A DNA stretch of 64,000 bases, taken from Patiria pectinifera. Lineage: Eukaryota; Echinodermata; Asteroidea; Valvatida; Asterinidae. The stretch is taken from the NCBI GenBank assembly GCA_029964075.1, contig CM057134.1, positions 18,516,905 through 18,580,904 of the forward strand. The letters are read 5' to 3'. Below the pieces are notes generated by a model. The model made no database searches. It saw only the letters and a list, made by a program, of their open reading frames with translations, and was not told where the DNA came from. The stretch's first letter is position 1; the number at the start of each line of letters is the position of its first letter. A program made the translations under genes and the position numbers. Positions 1-61,280 of the stretch are shown piece after piece.

Positions 1-731
1 TTTGGGACAAAAATAAAGTAATCGCAAGCTTTTCTTTGTCTGTTATTTTTTTTTTTGCGGAGTCACGGCACGTACGACACTGCTCTACAAACATTTCCTG
101 CGCCGCTTTCCCTTGGCACATTATGGATCCCGCTGTGTTCCAAAAACTATTTCTGTGTCCAGTCATGAAAGCGAAGAAAAAAATCCACACACTATGGATT
201 CATTGAGGCTTGATGTTGTTTTCTTCTTTTGAGACACTGTTGTTTGTGGCTACGCCTTAACAACATTTTTAAGGAGTGTTCGATGTACTAGAATGGCTGA
301 TTTGTATAGAAATAAAGAGCACACAAGGTCAAATACCCAAACAAAATTCCTTGACATGTTTGAGTGATTTCTTGAAATTGACAGTTATTAAACCCGTTTC
401 AGAGATTTTTGACAAGAGAAAAACAGACAGGCAGGTGTGGTGTGTGATACTACCCCATTTGCTAGCTGTTCTTGGACAAATATCAATTTTGTCTACAATT
501 TGTGTATTACTGTCTGCTCAAGAGCTACATGTACATGTATTTGAAGCAACCCACAAATTGTGTCAAATTTATGGCCAGAAACTTCAGGCAAATGTCACAT
601 CTGCCACACCCTGATTTATTATATGAAGTGGTTTGCCCCCTCCCTCCCTCCCCAATCCCCTACCATGCCATCCCCCACCCCCCTTGAGGGTGGATTTTGG
701 TGATTTGAGAGTATCTGATCACTTCTATTAC
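1..731. other. Intronic or flanking DNA downstream of the cbEGF exon
   Basis: This is the 3' side of the minus-strand cbEGF exon, so it should be the start of its next intron. The minus-strand splice donor sits at 730-731. A C-rich pyrimidine tract lies at about 637-685 and an ACATGTACATGTA run at about 526-541. I see no further EGF-like exon or other recognisable coding segment; the open frames here are short and have no family features. Confidence 0.6.
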
Positions 732-854
732 CTATGCACGTCATGCCGTCGGGTGAGAGTTCATAGCCGGCTTGGCACTTGCAGTAGTAACTCCCGATGC
801 TGTTGCAGCATTCGCCCTGGCACCCTCCGTTGTTGTACAAACACTCATTCACAT
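732..854 (-). CDS. Calcium-binding EGF-like domain exon (partial gene)
   Basis: This 123-nt exon encodes one complete calcium-binding EGF domain of an extracellular protein. On the minus strand a long pyrimidine tract and CACTACAG precede it, and a GTAATAG donor follows. It starts in phase 1 (last two bases of an Asp codon) and ends with the first base of the next codon, so it is a symmetric 1-1 exon as is usual for EGF modules. The peptide begins (Asp)-Val-Asn-Glu-Cys, the Ca-binding signature. Cys spacing is C-x6-C-x3-C, and the Asx-hydroxylation pattern C-x-N-x4-Y-x-C-x-C is present, followed by [11 protein letters not shown]. An extra cysteine directly after the third canonical one gives seven in total. 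The Cys-x6-Cys-x3-Cys spacing is that of EGFL7, MEGF6, SCUBE and EGF-precursor modules rather than fibrillin. The domain assignment is firm; the parent gene is inferred. Confidence 0.9.
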
Positions 855-942
855 CTGTAGTGAAATTGTAACAAGAGGGGGGAGGAAAAGATTATCAGTA
901 AAGTCCAAGTAGTTTCAATGCAGATATTTGAAACCTGAAAAC

Positions 943-2860: not shown

Positions 2861-4349
2861 TAGTTTATTCTAATTTTTCAGAGAGTGAAGTCCAAAAATG
2901 ACACCTCACGTTGATGTGTGTCGTAATGAAATGTGGATAATAATAATTATGAAAGAACTCAACTGTAACATTTTCATACTGCCGTGTAGTGGAACTGGAA
3001 CAGTGCCCTCTTGTTGTTACATCCTCGCATTTGCGAACGAATAGTTTACATTCTCCATAGAGAACGATATGTTATTTTTGGCCAATGATTAAAAAACAAG
3101 TAAACTGCAAGGTACTTTTTACAAGTGACCCCGAATACATTGTAAAGAACACAAGTCTTTCCAGAACAAAGTGTGTGAATGTCAAACTTGCTTATAAATT
3201 GGATAGATGATCTCAAATAAGGAGACATGCTTGTAACAATAGGGTGCACTATACTAATTCAAGTGAGAATTTCTACACAAGTCATTAGCATAAAAAGTGC
3301 CCCCACAATTTCTTTTGAAAATGGAGACCGTTTGGCTTTAAAAACGGTGGAGTTGTGTAAATATACCCAAGGATTAACTCCCTGGGTTTGGGCTTCCATC
3401 TGAGGGCAGGCTTGATAAAGTCACGGATGAAAAATGGGTCCTTTTTGCCTGTGAAAGTGGAAGGATGCCACTTGTAAAATGGCTACATGCAGGCTTGGGG
3501 ACTATCACTTTTAGGGAGGTGATTTTATTTGGGTGTGAATATTTAAAAATGTAATTGGCTAATGTACCTTAAATTGAAAAGAAATGAAAAGATGAAAGAC
3601 AAGACAATAATTGAATTTTTGTTTTGAGCAACCCCAGTGATGTTGCTTTGCATGTTATTTGGCCCTGAACTTTGTTGATTTTACACTGTTTTCAATGGGG
3701 CTTGAATTAGTACAGTGGACCCAATAGCATTTTGAGGAACGTGTTGTGTGGGTGTTAGTTAGCTGAATGGTGAGTAGAAAAGCGTCAGTAGTAATTTTGC
3801 ACTTTTTATGCAGTTACGGTCCCAGTCTGGAGTTGCACCACAACCTCTGCTGTGCAGTACAATAGCATTACAGCGCTAGTAACCACCAACTGTTTTTTCC
3901 ACCCGAACCCATTCTCTGAAGTTCTTACACAATCTCCGCGACCACAGCCGACCACAGCCTTATTCCTTTCATGGGGCTTTTTAATGTAAAAGTTAGCTTC
4001 CCAGTGTGATTGGGAAATGTTTTCTCTTCTTTTCTTCTCCCAGCAGGTGCGGCCAAGTGGAGTGATCGTTAAAGTCAACACTTGACATGATCTTGGACTT
4101 TTATTGTGGACATAAAGGATTTGAGAGAGAGGGGGGGGGGGAAGGGGCACGCTGGTGCGCAGATACAGCGACAGAGAATAAGCTTTGGGAGAGGACATAA
4201 CAGTCCGCCCACTCAAACAGGATTTATAAAATAAATAGCGAGCTACTGATGGGAGGATTGCCCATAAACTAACAGTGTTATTTGAAGGGGGCACGGAGGT
4301 GGTAACAGCGTGAGAATCACTAACTTTTTTCACTATGGCTTAATCTGGG
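2861..4349. other. Intronic DNA, nothing recognised
   Basis: This is AT-rich sequence with a G run near 4132-4140. A minus-strand open frame of 175 codons spans 3806-4333. It has no recognisable domain, no convincing splice context and low-complexity stretches, so I do not call it a gene. Confidence 0.45.
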
Positions 4350-6550: not shown

Positions 6551-6825
6551 ATTGACCCTCCTATGCAAACATACATGCAGTCAAAATCAATCAAGTGACT
6601 GTTTCCAACAGTTAAGAATTCCCAGCCTACATAAAGCTTTGATTTTTGACTGTGGATAAGTGATAAGCCAGCTGTGCCCACAACTTGCCTACTGTGTCTG
6701 TTCATGGTCTCTCGACTGAATTTGAGTAGTCACAGTGCTTGCTTGTCATATGATCTGACTGTTGGTGACTAGCCTGTGTTAAAAGTATAGCAGGGGAAGT
6801 GGATGGACATTTTGACTGTCTGACC
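6551..6825 (-). mobile_element. CAGTC-rich MITE, family C copy 1
   Basis: It carries the family phrases CAGTCAAAATCAATCAAGTG, ACTGTTGGTGACTAGCCTGT and TTTTGACTGTCTGACC. It shares orientation with the copy at 24454-24795 and is reversed relative to 21635, 25510 and 37999. It abuts a truncated family P element at 6826, so one of the two was probably inserted into or beside the other. Confidence 0.75.
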
Positions 6826-17125: not shown

Positions 17126-19515
17126 GTATACATGTAATTGTTGTAAGTTCTATTCACGATACAAACAAAATAACCCTGGATGAATTTGTGTGTGCTTCGC
17201 AACGCTACCCAAACTAAACACTTCTCCGAAAACTTAATGCCTCACTGATCCATAAGAATCCTATGCTAGCGTGCGTGCGTGTCCAGTTTCGGTTCTGCAC
17301 GACGCACCTACAAAGCTTCAAAGCACAGTGTGACAAAATTCAATATTGATAGAGAAAATAAAGTGGGCGCAACCGTATATACCTCCAGGCTGTTGACACG
17401 GCTCGCAAATAATGAAATTTTTTTAAATAACAGGCAATCCGATTCCAAATTAACAGGGTATCGTAATGTACTTGCGATACTCCAAAAATGCAGTGCATAT
17501 CGGTTTTGGACACCACTGACAGATATTTTATGCCCTGAAGACACGACGTGTTTTCCTGCCGAGTTCAAACCCAGCAAGGCATATTTTGATCCCAAATTAG
17601 GCTCGGGTTAAACGCAGAAAAGAAAAAAAATGCAACATCCCCTGACTATTCTCCTATTAAGAGGTCGAGTTCTACCAAACAGATTGGTAGAGTAACAGAA
17701 AGGAACACTCGTTACCCCCAGGTTGTTTGTCACCACTATTTAACTGAGGAAAAAACTAAAATTATTGAATTTAGGAATGGCAGAACTAAAAGTAAACAAA
17801 CAAAACTACTGCGGATAAAGGGGCAATCGTGTAGTTTAGGACACCTCCCTTTTTTACTTGTTCAGTTGAAATATGACTTTTGCAAATGACTGTCAAATTT
17901 TCTAAAATGCCTTCTGCAGCCCAAGCAATTTTTTTTTATTTAGATGAATTCTAGGTTTTGGTAAAGTGGATTAGTAGGCCTACTTTTGAAGAAAATGCGA
18001 CATTCGTCATAGCAGTTCAGGTGCTGTCGCCATTTTAACCCAAGTTTCCTCATAAATAAAAACCCTGTCTTTCTACAAAATTTAGCTGGCTGATAGGTAT
18101 TTTAGCAAACTAAAAAATACAAAGCTACTTTTCCTATTTAGGTAAATCTCAAAACATACAAGTGTCTTTTCGTTCTCTTATATGGAACGGAGTCTTAAAC
18201 AACACCATAACCAATAAAAGGAGACTTTCGAGAGAAATCTTGACAGAGAATTTCCAAAGAAAGTGGAGCCTCCAAAGTTGCAACAGACTTTTAAAAATGT
18301 CAAGAGCTACACATGTACATGTACCTTGCAAACAGCGTTACTATGGAGAAATACCACAGCTATTGAGTACCGAATCGAATACATCACATGCACAAAATGT
18401 GTGTAAAAGACATTAGCGCGTGAGTCAGCCCGTGAACCAACACGCGCGCGTACTCCATTCGTTTGCACTACACTTTCTGGTTCTAAATGATGTCACACTT
18501 CGGTACTCTGAAGCAAAGTTCACGGGATTTGAATGTAAGTTGCAAGGGAAAAATCTTGTCCCCATTTTCATGACAATGGCCCAAGAACAAGCCTAAAATA
18601 GAACAGAAAGTTATTCAGTGTTCTTCAAGATGAAAGTGCTTGTAACACAAGACCTAAATTTGACCTTTAAGATACGAATTCCTTTCAAGAGTTGGGGGAG
18701 GAATTTGAAATGTTATCCTCCCGTCCCCAAGATGTTAATCTCATCACTGGCTCCCAATTTCCTTCCAATTTTTGTCGTTAAGATTCTTAAAAGAGACAGG
18801 CCGACCTTAGAATTATGACACGAGGGAAGCTTTTTTCTTTTTTTGGCCGGAGGTGATGACTTATCCAATATTTCCTTGATTTTGATCTGGCAGGTTTGTA
18901 CTAGGATCAGGGTCTGGGTTAAGGTAGTCTTCCCAGCCCTGAGGAGTGATGTTAATTTCCTCCAGGACCGAGGACTAACCACCCATCTTCCTCCCGAGAC
19001 CCGCCGACTCTACCTTCCCCCTTTGGCCACCCCCTTGGAGACTCGGACTTTCCGTGAGCGATTGCCACCTGCCTAATCCGACCCTCTTGAACGGCCGACA
19101 GGACGTGTCAACCTCCATTTCTTCTCCTTTTATTTGTTCAACTCAATAAGACACTAACAGCCATTCCATGTAAGGGTCATCACCAAACTCAAAAATTGAA
19201 GTGAAAGGAATAAATGTTTGTCAGTTATATTTGATAAGAGGAATATTGAAACCATCTAAATCTCAAAAGATTTTTAAAAATAAATCATTTGATTTAAAGT
19301 TTCAGCCTCCTGAACATGGATGAATTTTGTGGGCAAAACGGAGGGTCAGGGGTATAAATCACAAACTGAGGAAGTAATTGAAGCTCATTCATAAGATTGT
19401 GCTTTATCTGCATACATTTGGTAGCTATTGCAGTCTGTTTGATAAAACATTAAAATTTTTCCAAATGTCTTCAGTATTTTCCCACTATTTCATCGTGAAA
19501 ACACCCTCAAAAATA
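17126..19515. other. Intronic DNA, nothing recognised
   Basis: There is a CpG-rich patch with GCGTGAGTCAGCCCGTGAAC near 18418-18437 and a GC-rich segment at about 18950-19100. No splice-bounded exon or shared repeat could be supported. Open frames on opposite strands at 17279-17611 overlap each other and look like chance. Confidence 0.4.
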
Positions 19516-19720
19516 TGTCACGCGAGTCACAAAATAGGGCTTTTTTTCAGATTACTTAATAACTAGAGAGGGATTCAGCTAGTGTTTGATATTTGTAAAT
19601 GAATTAGTGGTGGTCTATCAATAAAAGTATGAATATTCTTATTTGCTCTACATTCCTTGTAGAAAAAACTATCTCAAGAATGTCACGCGAGTCACACAAG
19701 ATGTATGTCACGCGAGTCAC

Positions 19721-20068
19721 CAGGGGCGGATCCAGGAATTTTTGCAGGGGGGGGGGTTTCATAAGCCAAAAAATCTGAAAATGTACACACGTTTTTTTCT
19801 CCAGACACTTGGCCTCCATAAAATCAAAAACTGGAGGGGGCTGGTACCAATTTCAAACAGGGGGGGTTTTCAAATTCGACGATTTTCAACACATTACAGA
19901 ATGGTGTACCGTATTTTGAACAGGCGGACATTAGACCAGTATAATTTTTTGGGGTGTCACAGCAGGGGTTCAACTAATTTTTAGGAATTTGTATGAGAAT
20001 TTTTTTTTTTTCAGATCTGGGTGGGTGTGGGTTTGACCCCTAAAATCCCCCCTCAGGATCCGTGCTTG
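19721..20068. mobile_element. MITE with CAGGGGCGGATCC ends and 5-bp duplication
   Basis: The left end is CAGGGGCGGATCCAGGAATT and, read from the right, the other end is CAAGCACGGATCCTGAGG. It is flanked by GTCAC on both sides (19716-19720 and 20069-20073), and the left GTCAC is the last five bases of one of the repeated 15-mers. It has no coding capacity. A single end of the same type is seen near 36384. The superfamily is not certain; hAT-like is possible. Confidence 0.75.
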
Positions 20069-20214
20069 GTCACAAGCGAAGCCAGGAATGTTTCATTTTC
20101 ATGTAATACAAAGAAACAATGCCATATTAAATTATAGAATTGGAATTAAGTCTTTAATTTAAGCATTAGTTATGTAACAAGAAATTGAATCAGTTTTTTA
20201 CAAATGTATATATA

Positions 20215-20404
20215 CAGTCGAGTCTCGTTAATACAAACTCGTTTGGACCTAGCCAAATAGTTTGTTATATCAGAATTTTGTATAAAGAGGAACATCAGTC
20301 CCATTCATTGTGCACATAATTTAATGCACAGTCGGGACTAAGGCTTTATGTTTGTTATAACCAGAATTTTGTATTAACAGAGTTTGTACCAACGAGATTG
20401 ACTG
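20215..20404. mobile_element. Pogo/Tigger-like MITE, TA duplication
   Basis: The left end is CAGTCGAGTCTCGTTAATAC and the right end, read inward, is CAGTCAATCTCGTTGGTAC, with TA on both sides (20213-20214 and 20405-20406). The interior has two further AGAATTTTGTAT phrases. TIRs of CAGTnnAnnCTCGTTAAT type with a TA target are characteristic of pogo/Tigger elements. At 190 bp it is non-autonomous. Confidence 0.8.
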
Positions 20405-21147
20405 TACTGTATACATTCCTATACAACTGCATCATTAATTGCAGCTCTTACCTTTTAAGGAAACTGTGACTCTACATGACCAAGAAGTACAACTGTTTTC
20501 CTGAAATAATCACCCGTGGATTGATGACATCACAAATTCGAAACATTTTTTTGTCTCCATGTCATTGTTAAGGATGTTGTGTTTAAACCAGATTTCCACC
20601 CCAACATTTGCCAAAGTAAAGGGATAAATAGCAGTTTTCACACTCTTTCATAAGGTATTCACAGGTAAATCATTTTTATTAATATATTATGATTTGATTT
20701 GTTATACTAAAATTACAGTTATAATGTGAAAGTGAAAAGCTACTGTGTCACGCGAGTCACGCATTTGTGTCACGCGAGTCACATTTTCGTCAGGCTATTT
20801 CTTACAACAAGGGATATTTGGCACAATACAACTTATGCATGTATTGGGTGAGGGTATTAAGTTCTAAGTTCAGTAAGAATAATTTTTAGAACACTGGTAG
20901 ATCCATAGGAAAAGCTATTTGAATCAAGGGATGTAAAAAATCCCTTTTTGTATCCTGTCACGCGAGTCACGTCAAAGAAACTGTGATACATGAAAAAATA
21001 GCGATGTTAAAGTAATCATATAAAAACTAAACCATAGATTCACAATGCCCTGACTCAAATACATGCTAATTTGAGTTGAATAAATGCCAGGTTAACAACA
21101 GTAATGCATTAAAATTTTACATTTTGTTCAAATGTCACGCGAGTCAC

Positions 21148-21634
21148 CATGGAATGGCTGCTAAGAAGAAAAAAAAAGACACCCAACTTCAAACAGGACT
21201 TTCGTGATCTGTTTGCGCAAGGGTTTTTACGCTCAATTGGGAGGAGGTACATGTATTGTGTAGAATTTGAAGCAACGAAAATACAGGTGTATTTGAGTTG
21301 TTGGGCACTTACATGCCAAGTGTTTCTTGAGCTAAAGTCAAGAAGACAGCAAGCACAATGCATGCTCTGACACTCAACACTTTAAGATTTTCATGCTACC
21401 AAAAGGTGTTTTCCTCATTGTATGAAAATGTAGTTCCTTTTTCTTCACTAAAAAAACACCTGTGCATTATTTAAATGCAAGTCTAAGACGGAAAACAATG
21501 AAACTGTACAGTTTATGTTTGCTAACTGGCAAGTAAGTATATTTTCTGAGAACAGATGGAATAAAGGAATATCAAGGATATTTTCCCACAGAAAAACTAT
21601 TTCAATATGGGGCCATGTAAGTGAACGAAACAAG
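21148..21634. other. Unique DNA after the 15-mer cluster
   Basis: Directly after the last 15-mer an ATG in strong context (CACCATGG, 21149) opens a 73-codon basic frame ending at 21370. No family is recognised and no intron signals are evident. I do not call it a gene, but the position is noted in the findings. Confidence 0.3.
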
Positions 21635-21942
21635 CTAAACCCTCCTGATGTCTGAACAGACACAGACAGTCAAAAAATCAAACCTCTTCCCTGCCATGCC
21701 TTTTACACAGGCTAGTCACCAACAGTCAGATCATATTTCAAGCAAGCACTGTGACTAGTCAAATTCAGTCAACAAACAAAAGCAGGCAAGTGGTAGGCAC
21801 AGCTGGCTTATCAATCACCTACAGTCAAAGCAAAGCTGTATCAAGTTACATTTAAACAGTCACAGCCAGTCAATCCTGCTTTATGTAGGCTGGGAGCTCT
21901 TATAACTATTAAAAACAGTCTCTTGATTGATTTTGACTGGTA
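21635..21942 (+). mobile_element. CAGTC-rich MITE, family C copy 2
   Basis: It begins near AAACCCTCCTGATGTCTGAA and ends GATTGATTTTGACTGG. It shares the order of CACAGACAGTCAAAAAATCA, CACCAACAGTCAGATCATAT, CACTGTGACTAGTCAAATTC and GTCACAGCCAGTCAATCCTG with four other copies. Many CAGTC or GACTG pentamers are spread through it. Confidence 0.85.
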
Positions 21943-24453: not shown

Positions 24454-24795
24454 TGACCCTCCCTCTCTGGCTGGCAATTTCAACAAGGCCAGCCCAGCAG
24501 TCAAAATCAATCAAGTGACTGTTTTTAACAGTTGAGTGCTCCCTGCCTTCATAAAGCAGGATTGACTGGCTGTGATTGTTATGAAACCTGATATAGCTAT
24601 GCTTTGACTGTAGGAGATTGATAAGCCAGCTATGCCTACCAGTCACCTGCTTTTGTCTGTTGATGGAATTTGACTGTCAAAGTGCCTACAAAAAAAATGA
24701 TCTGACTGTTGGTGACTACGCTGTGTAAAAGGAATGGCAAGAAACAGGATTGAATTTTTTGACTGTCTGTGACTGATCAAACCATGAAGGGTTAA
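24454..24795 (-). mobile_element. CAGTC-rich MITE, family C copy 3, near full length
   Basis: It runs from TTGACCCTCCCTCTCTGGCT to AACCATGAAGGGTTAA. With copy 5 it defines the full element: one end TTAACCCTCCTTCTCTGGC, the other TTAACCCTTCATGGTTTGA. The TTAA target with CCCT termini is the piggyBac pattern, so I infer a non-autonomous piggyBac-type element of about 340 bp. Confidence 0.85.
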
Positions 24796-25509: not shown

Positions 25510-25761
25510 CGACCCTCCTGCTGTCTGAACAGTCACAGACAGTCAAAAAATCAATCCTCTTCCCCTGCCATGATTTCTACACAAGCTAGTCATCAACAGT
25601 CAGATCATTATTTCTAGCAAGCACTGTGACTAGTCAAATTCAGTCAACAGACAAGTCGAAGCATAGCTATTTCAAGTTAACAGTCACAGCCAGTCAATCC
25701 TGCTTTATGAAGGCTAGGAGCTTTTAACTGTTAAAAACAGTCACTTGATTGATTTTGACTG
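25510..25761 (+). mobile_element. CAGTC-rich MITE, family C copy 4
   Basis: It begins GACCCTCCTGCTGTCTGAAC and ends GATTGATTTTGACTG, with the same block order as copy 2. Part of the middle is missing between AGTCAACAGACAAG and CATAGCTATTTCAAG. Confidence 0.85.
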
Positions 25762-29157: not shown

Positions 29158-29400
29158 GGGCAATTCCACGGTTACTCACAACGTTACATTTTTGATGTAC
29201 TTTTGAGTTTCCTTGGGCTGTAATTACCTTACTGAAAAGGTTGAATAACTGTTATCCCCATGGTAGATAGAGTAGACCTAGACCTACCTAAGCACCAAAG
29301 ATGACATCCAGAAAAATGTGTTATGTATGATTAACAAGACGCACAAAATCGGGGTTACTCACGTTACATTTTCGGAACGTGAGTAACCGTGGAATTGCCC
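29158..29400. mobile_element. Short transposon with 22-bp perfect inverted ends
   Basis: The left end is GGGCAATTCCACGGTTACTC followed by AC, and the right end is its exact complement (29379-29400). Subterminal ACGTTACATTTT occurs on both sides. A 4-bp direct repeat ACCA flanks it. It is 243 bp long and non-coding. Perfect 22-bp ends suggest relatively recent movement. Superfamily unknown. Confidence 0.8.
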
Positions 29401-31931: not shown

Positions 31932-32136
31932 GGGACATTTAGCTGGTTGACACGCACCATTCCTTGTGTGTGACGCACATACACCAAGAGATTTGTACTA
32001 TGAACACGCAGTGGTACGTATGGCCGCGCGTCACGGCAAAATATTGCAGTCAGGAAAGATGGCGTCAGTCGGTCACCCCCAACTGTGCTTTCTTTGCCGG
32101 TGAGGGGGTACTTGTGAACGGAGCGGATAGGAACCA
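31932..32136 (+). repeat. 205-bp tandem duplication, unit 1, with candidate first exon
   Basis: The unit starts GGGACATTTAGCTGGTTGAC and contains GTACGTATGGCCGCGCGTCA, then AAGATGGCGTC. The ATG at 32059 opens 41 nt, encoding MASVGHPQLCFLC plus two bases, up to a GTGAGG splice donor at 32100. AAGATGGCG is the YY1-type motif often found at animal transcription or translation starts. CpG content is higher than in the neighbourhood. The open segment stops soon after the donor if unspliced. I do not recognise the protein; the Cys-x2-Cys could begin a zinc-binding motif. Confidence 0.4.
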
Positions 32137-32341
32137 GGGACATTTAGCTGGTTGACGCACTCCGTTCCTTGTGTGTGACGCACATACACCAGGGGATTTG
32201 TACTATGAACACGCAGTGGTACGTACGGCCGCGCGTCGCGGCAAAATATTGCAGTCAGGAAAGATGGCGTCGGTCGGTCACCCCAAACTGTGCTTTCTTT
32301 GCCGGTGAGGGGGTACTTGTGAACGGAGCGGATAGGAACCA
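32137..32341 (+). repeat. 205-bp tandem duplication, unit 2, with candidate first exon
   Basis: This is a direct copy of unit 1 with few differences. The ATG at 32264 opens MASVGHPKLCFLC plus two bases to the donor at 32305. Between the units the 41-nt coding segment differs by one synonymous change (TCA to TCG) and one change that turns Gln into Lys, with no frameshift. The upstream block and donor are preserved. Either a duplicated promoter/first exon or a duplicated fragment of an unrecognised element is possible. Confidence 0.4.
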
Positions 32342-32364
32342 GTTCCATGAGCAATGCACATAAA

Positions 32365-37998: not shown

Positions 37999-38266
37999 AA
38001 ACCCTCCTTTTGTTTGATCAGTCACAGACAGTCAAAAATTCAATCCTGTTCGCTGCCATGCCTTTTACACAGGTCAGTCACCAACAGTCAGATCATATTT
38101 CTTGTAGGCACTGTGACAATCAAATTCTATCAACAGACAAAAGCATAAACTGGTAGGCACAGACTTATGAAAGCAGGGAGCACTCAACTGTTGAAAACAG
38201 TCACTTGATTTATTTTGACTGCTGGGCTGACCTTGTTGAAATTGACAGCCAGAGAAGGAGGGTTAA
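37999..38266 (+). mobile_element. CAGTC-rich MITE, family C copy 5
   Basis: It begins AAACCCTCCTTTTGTTTGAT, a few bases after ATTAAATAA, and ends GAGAAGGAGGGTTAA with TTAA at 38263-38266. It shares the outer block GGGCTGACCTTGTTGAAATT with copy 3, which the other copies lack. The middle block containing AAGCAAAGCTGTATCAAG is deleted here. Confidence 0.85.
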
Positions 38267-49089: not shown

Positions 49090-50562
49090 AAGACATTCCA
49101 TTACCTTGAGGATTCATTTTAAGGAGTTTTTCCCACAGAAAGCTAAGTACTCAATTGAAAGCTGATTTTTAAAGAAAATTTACAGATTTTTTATTTTATA
49201 CACTATTTAATTTGAAAAAAAAATTAAAGTCCTACAAAATCAAATTGATAGGTACATGAAAGTATACTTCCTTTGTCCGTTGTTGCTTGTTACACACTTG
49301 TGTTCAACTTGACAATGAAGCGTGATTGGCTTGTATTTGAATCCGTTTATCTTGTGACTTGGTTTTTCCCTTTACATTTAAATGTAAATTAACCATGCAA
49401 ACATCAAACTGAATGCATGCTGCCTGATTCCTTACTCATGTCCCAGCTGAGCTTTCCCATGTTTTCTATCCTTAAAAGGAGTACTAAGAACACCCCCGAT
49501 TCGTCATGAAATTCTTCCACATAAATTCACGAAACATCGCGCCTTCCCAGAGGGAGGTCAGAAAATGTCATCAAGCCCATCGTAAGTGTCGATAAACTTA
49601 AAAGACATTATCTCGGGTGGAACGTCTGAGTTGTCTGATTTGTCTTTCCGATTTATCTCCTCTCCAAGGACTAGCAAGCTTCTGCATGACTCCATCCGAC
49701 CAAAACAATACTATCAGATTTTCAGCCGCTATTAATATCAGCATCCTCTCACAACAGTTATAAAAGGACTTTTTCTCAACTCTATAAAAATGTGGCGAAA
49801 TCTTGTGTAAATGTGTATGTATGTGACTTTAAATTCCTTGTATAAAAGGCACAATTGCTGGGCAAGTGAACAATCCGTAAGGCACATGTACATATGTTAA
49901 TAAATCTTTTTACTTCTTCTTAGTTCACGAACTTAGAACTGTAACGTTTAGAAACTGAACACTTCGATTTCCAAGGGTGAACAAAAATCTTGAATAGGGC
50001 CTATACTTTTTTTAGGCCTACAAACTCTATAGTCCCAACCCCACTGGAATTCTAATGCCAGTTGAAACTTCTTTTTTTTCTTTTCAGAACTTAGAACTTA
50101 ATTACAACTGTGAAACATACTAATATAAACAGAAAACATCTTTAAAATTCCAATATTTTTCTTGCCAGGACATTTTACAGACCCACCCCTCTCCATAAGT
50201 CACTGGAGTTCAGATCCTGGCAATGTTAATCACCGACAAACTGTTGCCAGTCAATAAAAAAAAGAGTACAAAACCAGATCGAGAAAGTCATCATACATGT
50301 AAATAATGCGATTCCCAGGCAGAGTGCCTTGGAAAGCTGTAAAAAAGAAAGACATAACGAGGTCGAGGGAAAAGTTTTAGAGTTATATAGTCGGAGGTGG
50401 CAGAGTTGTAATTCGTACAAATGATTAAATAACCTGGCCCAGACTAGGTGAGAAGGTGTCTGACGTGCAGTTATAAATTCAACATGATTAATGGCCTCTC
50501 CAGGGCTTCTCAGTGCAATATGTCATGAGGAACTTGGTTTGAATTAGCAGTTTAATGGTACA
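49090..50562. other. Unique DNA, possible conserved segment
   Basis: About 49480-49760 is apparently single-copy with more balanced composition, including CATCGCGCCTTCCCAGAGGG and CATTATCTCGGGTGGAACGT. No exon is recognised; it could be regulatory. Confidence 0.35.
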
Positions 50563-51651
50563 CAGGTTACTGAACTACAATGGCACGACGCTGACAGACT
50601 TTCAAACTCTTTCATTTTTTAATGCTAAACACTGAGATCCAATTCCAAAACTGAACAGAAACAAGTCAGAGTTTAGTTTTAAAGTCAGGGCTCTGTTTTT
50701 TAACGTTGGCAAGCTACATGCATTCATAGCTGAAGACAACAATGTCCAGTAAGGACAACACCTAAAGATTACAAGAATCAAGAGACAGGTTACTGAACTA
50801 TGGCAGGACGCTGACAGACTTTCAAACTCTTTCATTTTTTAATGTTAAACATTGAGATCCAATTCCAAAACTGAACAGAAACTAGTCAGAATTTAGTTTT
50901 AAAGTCAAGGCTTTGTTTTTTAGCATTAGCAAGCTACATGCATTCATAGCTGTAGACAAAAAAAGTCCGGTTAGCACAACACCCAAAGATTACAAGAATC
51001 AAAAGACAGGTTACTGAACTATAATGGTAGGACGCGGACAGACTTTCAAACTCTTTCATTTTTTTTAATGCTAAGCATTGAGATCCAATTCCAAAACTGA
51101 ACAGAAACAAGTCAGAATTTGGTTTTAAAGTCAGGGCTTTGTTTTTTAACGTTGGCAAGCTACATGCATTCATAGCTGTAGACAAAAAAAGTCCCAAAGA
51201 TTACAAGAATCAAGAGACAGGTTACTGAACTATAATGGCAGAATGCTCACACACTTTCAAACTCTTTCATTTTTTAATGCTAAACATTGAGATCCAATTC
51301 CAAAACTGAACAGAAACATGTCAGAATTTAGTTTTAAAGTCAGGGCTTTGTTTTGTTTCTTAACATTGGCAAGCTACATGTATTCATAGCTGTAGACAAA
51401 AAAAGTCCGGTTAGCACAACACCCAAAGATTACAAGAATCAAGAGACAGGTTACTGAACTATAATGGCAGGACGCTGACAGACTTTCAAACTCTTTCATT
51501 TTTTTAATGCTAAACATTGAGATCCAATTCCAAAACTGAACAGAAACTAGTCAGAATTTAGTTTTAAAGTCAGGGCTTTGTTTTGTTTCTTAACATTTGC
51601 AAGCTAAATGTATTCATTGCTGAAGACAAAAATGTCCAGTTAGGACAACAA
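50563..51651. repeat. Tandem array, five units of about 222 bp
   Basis: Units start AGGTTACTGAACTA at about 50563, 50787, 51008, 51219 and 51448, giving spacings of 224, 221, 211 and 229 bp. Each holds GACAGACTTTCAAACTCTTT, TGAGATCCAATTCCAAAACT, GGTTTTAAAGTCAGGGCTTT-like and CAAGCTACATGCATTCATAG blocks. Unit 4 lacks the GTTAGCACAACACC block just before it. Minus-strand open frames in the units are shared by repetition, not evidence of a gene. Confidence 0.92.
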
Positions 51652-59608: not shown

Positions 59609-60620
59609 CCTTGATCATGGAAATTACTCATTCTTGTTGACAATGGAAGAGTTGCACAAGTCTGGTTAAATAATTTTATTCGAGCCAAAATTTGGAAAGC
59701 AAAGATGATTGCAGTATGATAGGCAATTGATTGCAGTATGATAGGCAATATAACCATTAGCGTAAGACTTAATTTTGTAATTTGGAAGGTCTGCAATCTC
59801 GTTTGTCCTTTTGAAAGAAAACTGACAAAAATGGACCACAAAACCATAATTGGATCACCACAAAAACCTACCAAATAGTTTGGCCCCAACCCATTATGAG
59901 AGGCCTGCATCACCATTATTGGGAACCACCTGCAGGTAGTTAAAGATTCCACCGGACAACAGCGTGGTGTAGCGCCATTGTGCTAAGGCCATCACGCTGG
60001 CACCACACAAGGTGCAATTTCCTTTAAAGAAAATTAAACATTGTCGGGCCATAGAGTTTAGGCTGACACTTACACAATCTTTTATCGTTTTTTAAACAGA
60101 CTGGGGCTGATGGACTGACTGACCCGGCGCATTGTGTGTTTTTTATAAAGTTGCCGATGAAGGGCATGTTTTGTCTGCTCAAGGAGTGTTTTTGGTCAGA
60201 GATTTTTTGATTCGGTCCCTGCAAAGTCGATGTCTTACTGGATCACAGGATCCTTATTGAGATAGTGCAGGAAAACAGGATTATGTAAATATGTGTAGCC
60301 AGCATCATATGCTTACCCGGATGTTTGACTGATATTTTATTCGGCTAGGATTATAACGGGAACGAGTTAAAACCAACCACTTATTCTCACAAAGTCCCCA
60401 CCCCAGTTGGTCTAAGCAAGTTCCTGTCTGCTTCAACAGACTGTGTGTTGTAAACTCATTAAACGAACTGGGACCCATTCTTCATTGTGCACTTTCAAGG
60501 ATCATCCAGCCCTGAAACATGGCTGGGATTAACTTTTCTCCATCCTGCAAAAGTCTTCAAAAGCCTCCTGATATATTTTAGAGGATCAGAGAGGGTTAGA
60601 CTTTAGCACTCTTTTCACTG
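59609..60620. other. Intronic DNA, nothing recognised
   Basis: A local duplication (GATTGCAGTATGATAGGCAA twice near 59707-59746) and otherwise unique sequence. Confidence 0.4.
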
Positions 60621-61280
60621 GATTTGTGCAGTTGCTTCAAGTCAACGAAGTTGATTGTTAGTTGGTAACATTGATTAGACTTGAATGCAGCGTATTGAAT
60701 AGACTAGAATGCCCAAGTTATCCAGATAGGGACCTCTGGACCTGCCATTTGACAAGGGTCTAAGAGGATTGAGTTGCCTTTGGATTTGTGCTGTTGCTTC
60801 AAGTCAACAAAGTTGATTGTTAGTTGGTAACATTGATTAGACTTGAATGCAGCGTATTGAATAGACTAGAATGCCTAAGTTATCCAGATAAGGACCTCTG
60901 GACCTGCCATTTGACAAGGGTCTAAGAGGATTGAGTTGCCTTTGGATTTGTGCTGTTGCTTCAAGTCAACGAAGTTGATTGTTAGTTGGTAACATTGATT
61001 AGACTTGAATGCAGTGTATTGGATAGACTAGAATGCCCAAGTGATCCTGACAGGGACCTCTAGACCTGCCATTCGACAAGCGTCTAAGAGGATTGAGTTG
61101 CCTTCTGTGGATGTGTGCAGATGCTTCAAGTCAACGAAGTTGATTGTTAGTTGGTAACATTGATTAGACTTGAATGCAGTGTATTGGATAGACTTGAATG
61201 CCCAAGTTATCCAGATAGGGACCTCTAGTCTAGACCTGGCATTTGACAAGCGTCGAAGGGGATTTATTTGCCTTCTATGG
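60621..61280. repeat. Tandem array, four units of about 163 bp
   Basis: Units start at GGATTTGTGCAG-like phrases near 60620, 60782, 60944 and 61109. Each holds GCTTCAAGTCAACGAAGTTG, TTGATTAGACTTGAATGCAG and TATCCAGATAGGGACCTCT. Units 1-3 are nearly identical; the last is a little diverged. Confidence 0.92.

Follow-up and report, generated by a model that had tools for sequence, protein, structure and literature searches.

Seven identical 15-mers in Patiria pectinifera lie within a non-autonomous DNA transposon family and are putative transposase docking sites

We analysed a stretch of 64,000 nucleotides of Patiria pectinifera contig CM057134.1 (hereafter the window). Between 19516 and 21147, its + strand carries seven exact copies of the 15-mer TGTCACGCGAGTCAC (words 1–7, Table 1). 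These copies, first described in a sequence-only reading of the window, lie within a non-autonomous DNA transposon. Exact search confirmed them, and 10 matches with up to three mismatches were found in the window, far above 100 dinucleotide shuffles (mean 0.58, maximum 4). Start-to-start spacings of 165, 25, 1040, 22, 188 and 177 bp reproduced the two tight pairs (25 and 22 bp) and the wider intervals reported earlier. Each 15-mer contains GTCAC twice, as putative half-sites at a distance of 9 bp. In a window scan for repeated words of 10–13 bases (at least four copies, dissimilar flanks required), the only 13-base words to qualify were pieces of TGTCACGCGAGTCAC, and one other 12-base word, AATGTACATGTA, qualified with 4 copies. 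Words containing TACATGTA also recur on both strands across the window, in unrelated flanks. The flanks of the 15-mers, previously said to share no similarity, come close to that description: when 21 pairs on each side were locally aligned and compared with 200 shuffles, the only scores far above the shuffled ones came from the two tight pairs, in which the flanks overlap. However, two upstream pairs were mildly high (7/200 and 15/200 shuffles as good), and words 1 and 2 share 25/50 ungapped upstream bases (also listed as a 60-nt repeat, 70%), words 6 and 7 22/50. An ancient satellite origin (165–190 bp units) was rejected because the flanks hold no clear residual similarity.

All seven words are bracketed by a perfect 13-bp inverted pair, CAGCCATTCCATG, itself flanked by CTAA. 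Alone, this arrangement is suggestive only: a comparable pair (arms of at least 13, flush direct repeat of at least 4) arose in 3/100 dinucleotide shuffles of the window, and the window holds two, at 19158–21160 and 29158–29400. A whole-genome search (G000; 613,548,705 bases, 1020 contigs) settled the identity of the element: 19158–21160 belongs to a family of ~130 non-autonomous cut-and-paste DNA transposons. Searching with 19100–21220 returned 43 matches, namely the window, 38 near-full-length copies (93–96% identity, ends no more than 17 bases from those predicted) and 4 partial ones. Patterns for the two ends, allowing up to three mismatches, matched 130 left ends (24 bp) and 130 right ends (28 bp); the 100 left and 100 right ends among the matches listed were all exact. 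When ends were paired from these listed matches, 68/81 pairs spanned 1950–2080 bp (median over all 81, 2028 bp). Other family copies carry the same terminal repeats, with CAGCC termini (CA..TG), and their target-site duplications are varied and AT-rich. Across 30 family loci the duplication was an exact flush 4 bp in 16, had one mismatch in 5 and was absent in 9, against 23/870 mismatched pairs in the control.

The genome-wide count and clustering check proposed in the earlier reading gave 365 + 376 exact 15-mers (reversed control, 0), and the first ~100 places listed formed groups with the spacing seen in the window. Its suggestion of recent spread likewise held, as divergence from consensus was 0.9–2.4% in the 16 copies measured. 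CAGCCATTCCATG followed by A or C was found at 6 places, compared to 1 for the reversed control and an even-base estimate of ~9; another element type sharing these ends may exist. At one locus (L050, G000:C11:6152472-6155862), two family copies lie nearly head to tail, and the right end that the end search gave for the first is chimeric.

Table 1 Features of the transposon copy in the window.
Feature	Position in window	Strand	Basis or remark
Left target-site duplication CTAA	19154..19157		Flush exact 4-bp repeat
Left terminal inverted repeat CAGCCATTCCATG	19158..19170	+	Ends of genome matches and 130 left ends
Word 1	19516..19530	+	Exact 15-mer; altered in 2/39 copies
Word 2	19681..19695	+	Exact 15-mer; altered in 2/39 copies
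Word 3	19706..19720	+	Exact 15-mer; altered or deleted in 5/39 copies
MITE1, nested miniature element, 348 bp	19721..20068		Sequence and arms; absent from L087
MITE2, TA-flanked nested miniature element, 190 bp	20215..20404		Sequence and arms; absent from L087
Internal-deletion junction, ~2.75 kb lost	20478..20479		Comparison with L087
Word 4	20746..20760	+	Exact 15-mer; altered in 8/39 copies
Word 5	20768..20782	+	Exact 15-mer; altered in 1/39 copies
Word 6	20956..20970	+	Exact 15-mer; altered in 5/39 copies
Word 7	21133..21147	+	Abuts right terminal repeat; intact in 39/39 copies and in diverged copy L084
Right terminal inverted repeat	21148..21160	-	13-bp pair; begins at the next base after word 7
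Right target-site duplication CTAA	21161..21164		Flush exact 4-bp repeat

One full-length relative of the family, L087 (G000:C11:3309390-3313620), retains both ends, is flanked by AAAG at either end and carries six exact words. Its 740-codon open frame, in which codon 14 is the first Met, lies between words 3 and 4, with words 1–3 preceding the frame and the other words downstream of it. The frame encodes a predicted DDE-type transposase with invariant D394, D471 and D512 in an integrase-like core, the catalytic fold being assigned by prediction; the integrase core filled the match list of a fold search with this protein. The L087 protein itself had no match in the copy of Pfam searched. Among the 37 members of A1, one matched rva_4 (integrase core, 1.1e-17), and six other Pfam families, matched by one member each, look incidental. 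Judged by homologue names, the protein family of the transposase occurs in several animal phyla. In a protein search of the genome, 60 of 94 candidates were scored: L087 stood at 100%, the next-best at 35% identity over 15–724 and the others were distant or partial; therefore, one close transposase source was seen. Two of the distant relatives (G000:C20:15907014-15908368 and 16381372-16382726) agree in stop count and score similarly, and are perhaps a duplicated segment or an assembly duplicate. A 40%-identical piece (G000:C9:10979116-10979847) lies ~1.6 kb before the family copy at C9:10981413.

In the 2-kb copies, sequence from near L087 position 779 runs directly into that from near 3526, which marks these copies as deletion derivatives, and they keep the last codons of a frame that was otherwise nearly all removed. 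On this comparison, the family descends by internal deletion from a transposase-encoding element type of 4.2 kb. A 3.5-kb locus (L088) considered as a second full-length copy was rejected, being a family copy with an insertion. The two miniature inverted-repeat transposable element (MITE) insertions noted previously are real, and L087 has neither. MITE1 is flanked by a GTCAC duplication (19716–19720 and 20069–20073), whose left copy is the last 5 bases of word 3. Removing 19721–20068 with the 5-bp duplication, and 20215–20404 with one TA, reproduced the central gap of ~495 bp given earlier. MITE2 was also missing from L041, but not as a clean empty site.

The words are under constraint. This was measured in set A, comprising 29 copies (including that in the window) retrieved by whole-length DNA search and not by word pattern, and in all 39 copies. 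Both MITE parts and homopolymer runs of at least 5 were left out; divergence was higher in the MITE1 part (2.9% at non-CpG sites of set A), perhaps owing to alignment errors. At non-CpG sites of set A, 1/2175 word cells were changed compared to 335/36131 in the body (Fisher, 6e-8), and singletons numbered 1 in the words versus 195 in the body (1.3e-4). CpG cells were also changed less often in the words (14/868 versus 21/520; 0.005). Across all 39 copies, the corresponding counts were 5/2914 versus 475/48571 (non-CpG) and 19/1163 versus 25/698 (CpG). A parsimony analysis, on a tree made from sequence outside the words, agreed, giving 1 non-CpG word change against 14.6 expected and 13 CpG changes against 26.7 in set A, and 5 against 20.6 and 18 against 31.7, respectively, in all 39. 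CpGs were kept in the words and were scarce in the remaining body, and 19/24 base changes within words fell at CpG sites, as expected of post-insertion decay. The least altered was word 7. Selection on the word, the other explanation offered earlier for its exact identity, thus stands alongside recent spread.

Taken as a whole, we consider it likely that this is a deletion-derived transposon family whose 15-mers are putative transposase docking sites. The words are probably bound by the moving enzyme, which the rare full-length relative would encode. Supplied in trans, the transposase would assemble on the 15-mers as direct-repeat binding sites, bring the two ends together and cut them. Word 7, which lies beside the right terminal repeat, would be indispensable, with the internal words in a supporting role. 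Half-sites 9 bp apart, about one helical turn, would suit a side-by-side dimer. Word identity may have been kept because copies losing words move less, together with recent spread of the family. The docking role is suggested by analogy, since subterminal repeats are the TNPA binding sites of Spm/En (PMC2613891) and since a short motif serves the hAT element Herves, whose transposase recognises it inside both ends and treats the terminal repeats unequally (PMC3143072).

Other explanations for the words were weighed against these data. A host enhancer or transcription-factor cluster at the window locus, as proposed in the sequence-only reading, would account for same-strand words lying close together. 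However, the 15-mer cluster is part of a dispersed repeat, the interval being a single insertion of a ~130-copy family spread over the assembly, which is the kind of result named in the sequence-only reading as its own refutation; a host binding-site cluster is therefore not supported and we regard it as extremely improbable. Of the earlier candidates, sites captured by an unknown mobile system came nearest, and the suggested link to paired-domain or AP-1-like factors is not required. The words could instead be sites for a host DNA-binding factor, which either is exploited by the transposon for its own expression or silences it. Arrays of subterminal motifs can also serve in regulation: on defective Spm/En elements, bound TNPA blocks transcription (PMC2613891). 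In L087, moreover, words 1–3 precede the frame. Against this, the remaining words lie downstream of the frame, the least altered word is the one abutting the terminal repeat, and all 7/7 places with T after the 15-mer (the one flank sampled) fell inside family copies, with 0 outside; such a role appears unlikely. Slightly less probable still is that the words are passengers, the element having moved recently as a unit so that word identity would be uninformative on binding. The copies are indeed young, and substitution counts pooled over CpG and non-CpG sites are not extreme compared to random body windows. Yet the stratified rates and the parsimony counts are both lower in the words, CpGs persist there, and seven identical words in unrelated sequence would have to predate the spread, having been made and kept.

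Several observations weigh against the docking-site reading itself. In the pooled comparison, 2124/20000 random body-window sets were as low or lower for the 39 copies, and 478/20000 when the first 16 copies were compared to all windows. CpG singletons alone showed no difference (P 0.21 in set A, 0.52 in all 39). The set A query contains the words, and its ranking reflects similarity to the window copy. The words are asymmetric, all on one strand, with word 1 starting 358 bp inside the left end and word 7 touching the right repeat. One close copy of the transposase frame was found among the 60 scored candidates, and L087 itself carries one CpG change in word 6. Finally, the diverged copy L084 (~80% identical) keeps its ends (left 24 bp exact, right 28 bp with one change) and an exact word 7 but no exact internal word, suggesting that internal words may be dispensable or lineage-specific. 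Among the 40 candidates scored of 138 from a first look, its relatives were the young family, at 79–80%. The internal words may have been lost from L084 by decay; alternatively, it was in the young lineage that they arose or became homogenised. In another copy, L042, tandem expansion of a 22-bp unit has added a third word to the tight pair, so that words lie at 2577, 2599 and 2621 (in its own orientation), each 22 bp from the next. Both patterns fit a more tentative proposal, which we consider doubtful, that the 15-mers form a one-directional iteron-like array making the ends non-equivalent. The essential copy would then be at the right terminus only; in the young lineage, the internal copies would have multiplied or been homogenised to match it, which would help the deletion derivative to compete for transposase from a single source.

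CACTA/EnSpm elements make target duplications of 2–3 bp, and membership of that group was rejected on the CAGCC termini and 4-bp duplication of the present family. hAT elements make 8-bp duplications, unlike the 4 bp seen here, and Ac/Ds differ from the family in superfamily, motif and duplication length. By analogy, the family would work as do other transposons that carry arrays of binding sites inside their ends. It resembles CACTA (En/Spm) elements, such as soybean Tgmt*, in its 13-bp terminal repeats and asymmetric short-motif arrays, and, on the reading given above, in having deletion derivatives moved in trans; the Tgmt* duplication is 3 bp (PMC2613891). Unlike CACTA elements, it has CAGCC and not CACTA termini, seven identical words confined to a single strand and an L087 protein without a Pfam match. 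The motif also differs from that of Herves. In maize Ac/Ds, the terminal repeats and some of the subterminal ones are common to the non-autonomous copies and an autonomous element (PMC3260210). Some Sola2-type elements are reported to have 12–13-bp terminal repeats and AT-rich 4-bp duplications of the pattern AWWT (PMC3627910); the 13-bp repeat and AT-rich 4-bp duplications of the present family resemble these, with AWWT not strictly followed. Kolobok membership, for which a TTAA duplication and 5'-RR..YY-3' termini are described (PMC9587614), was rejected by the varied AT-rich duplications and CA..TG termini.

The exact 15-mer had 22 single matches and no pair in viral contigs, about chance by estimate, and one match in genome contigs (Cellulomonas), read as chance. 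Literature text searches matched the 15-mer in hepatocellular carcinoma work only, matched the terminal repeat (also with 'transposon' and 'TIR', terminal inverted repeat) in papers that, among those listed, were unrelated by title, and gave no match to short words of the transposase protein. In the window, Rfam and ARAGORN gave no match, the frame carrying words 2 and 3 had no homologue at E <= 1, and ten frames searched against Pfam yielded one match, an EGF-like exon (622–891, minus strand), and nine without. Inverted-repeat elements whose termini are GGGCAATTCCAC, with what appear to be 4-bp duplications, are represented by a 243-bp copy at 29158–29400, and by a ~2-kb insertion (about 1990 bp) inside the 15-mer family copy L047. 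A dispersed repeat of ~300 bp lies at 21637–21939, with copies near 6578–6822, 24498–24782, 25512–25761 and 37999–38221. Tandem arrays occur at 31932–32342 (205 bp units), 50562–51650 (440/230) and 60619–61274 (162).

An odd cluster of words is thereby turned into a testable transposon system, with one open transposase frame and ~130 dependants, and the conservation of the words provides a sequence-level estimate of the bases that may matter for movement. Where an exact-word cluster is met in a large genome, repeat membership should be checked before it is called an enhancer.
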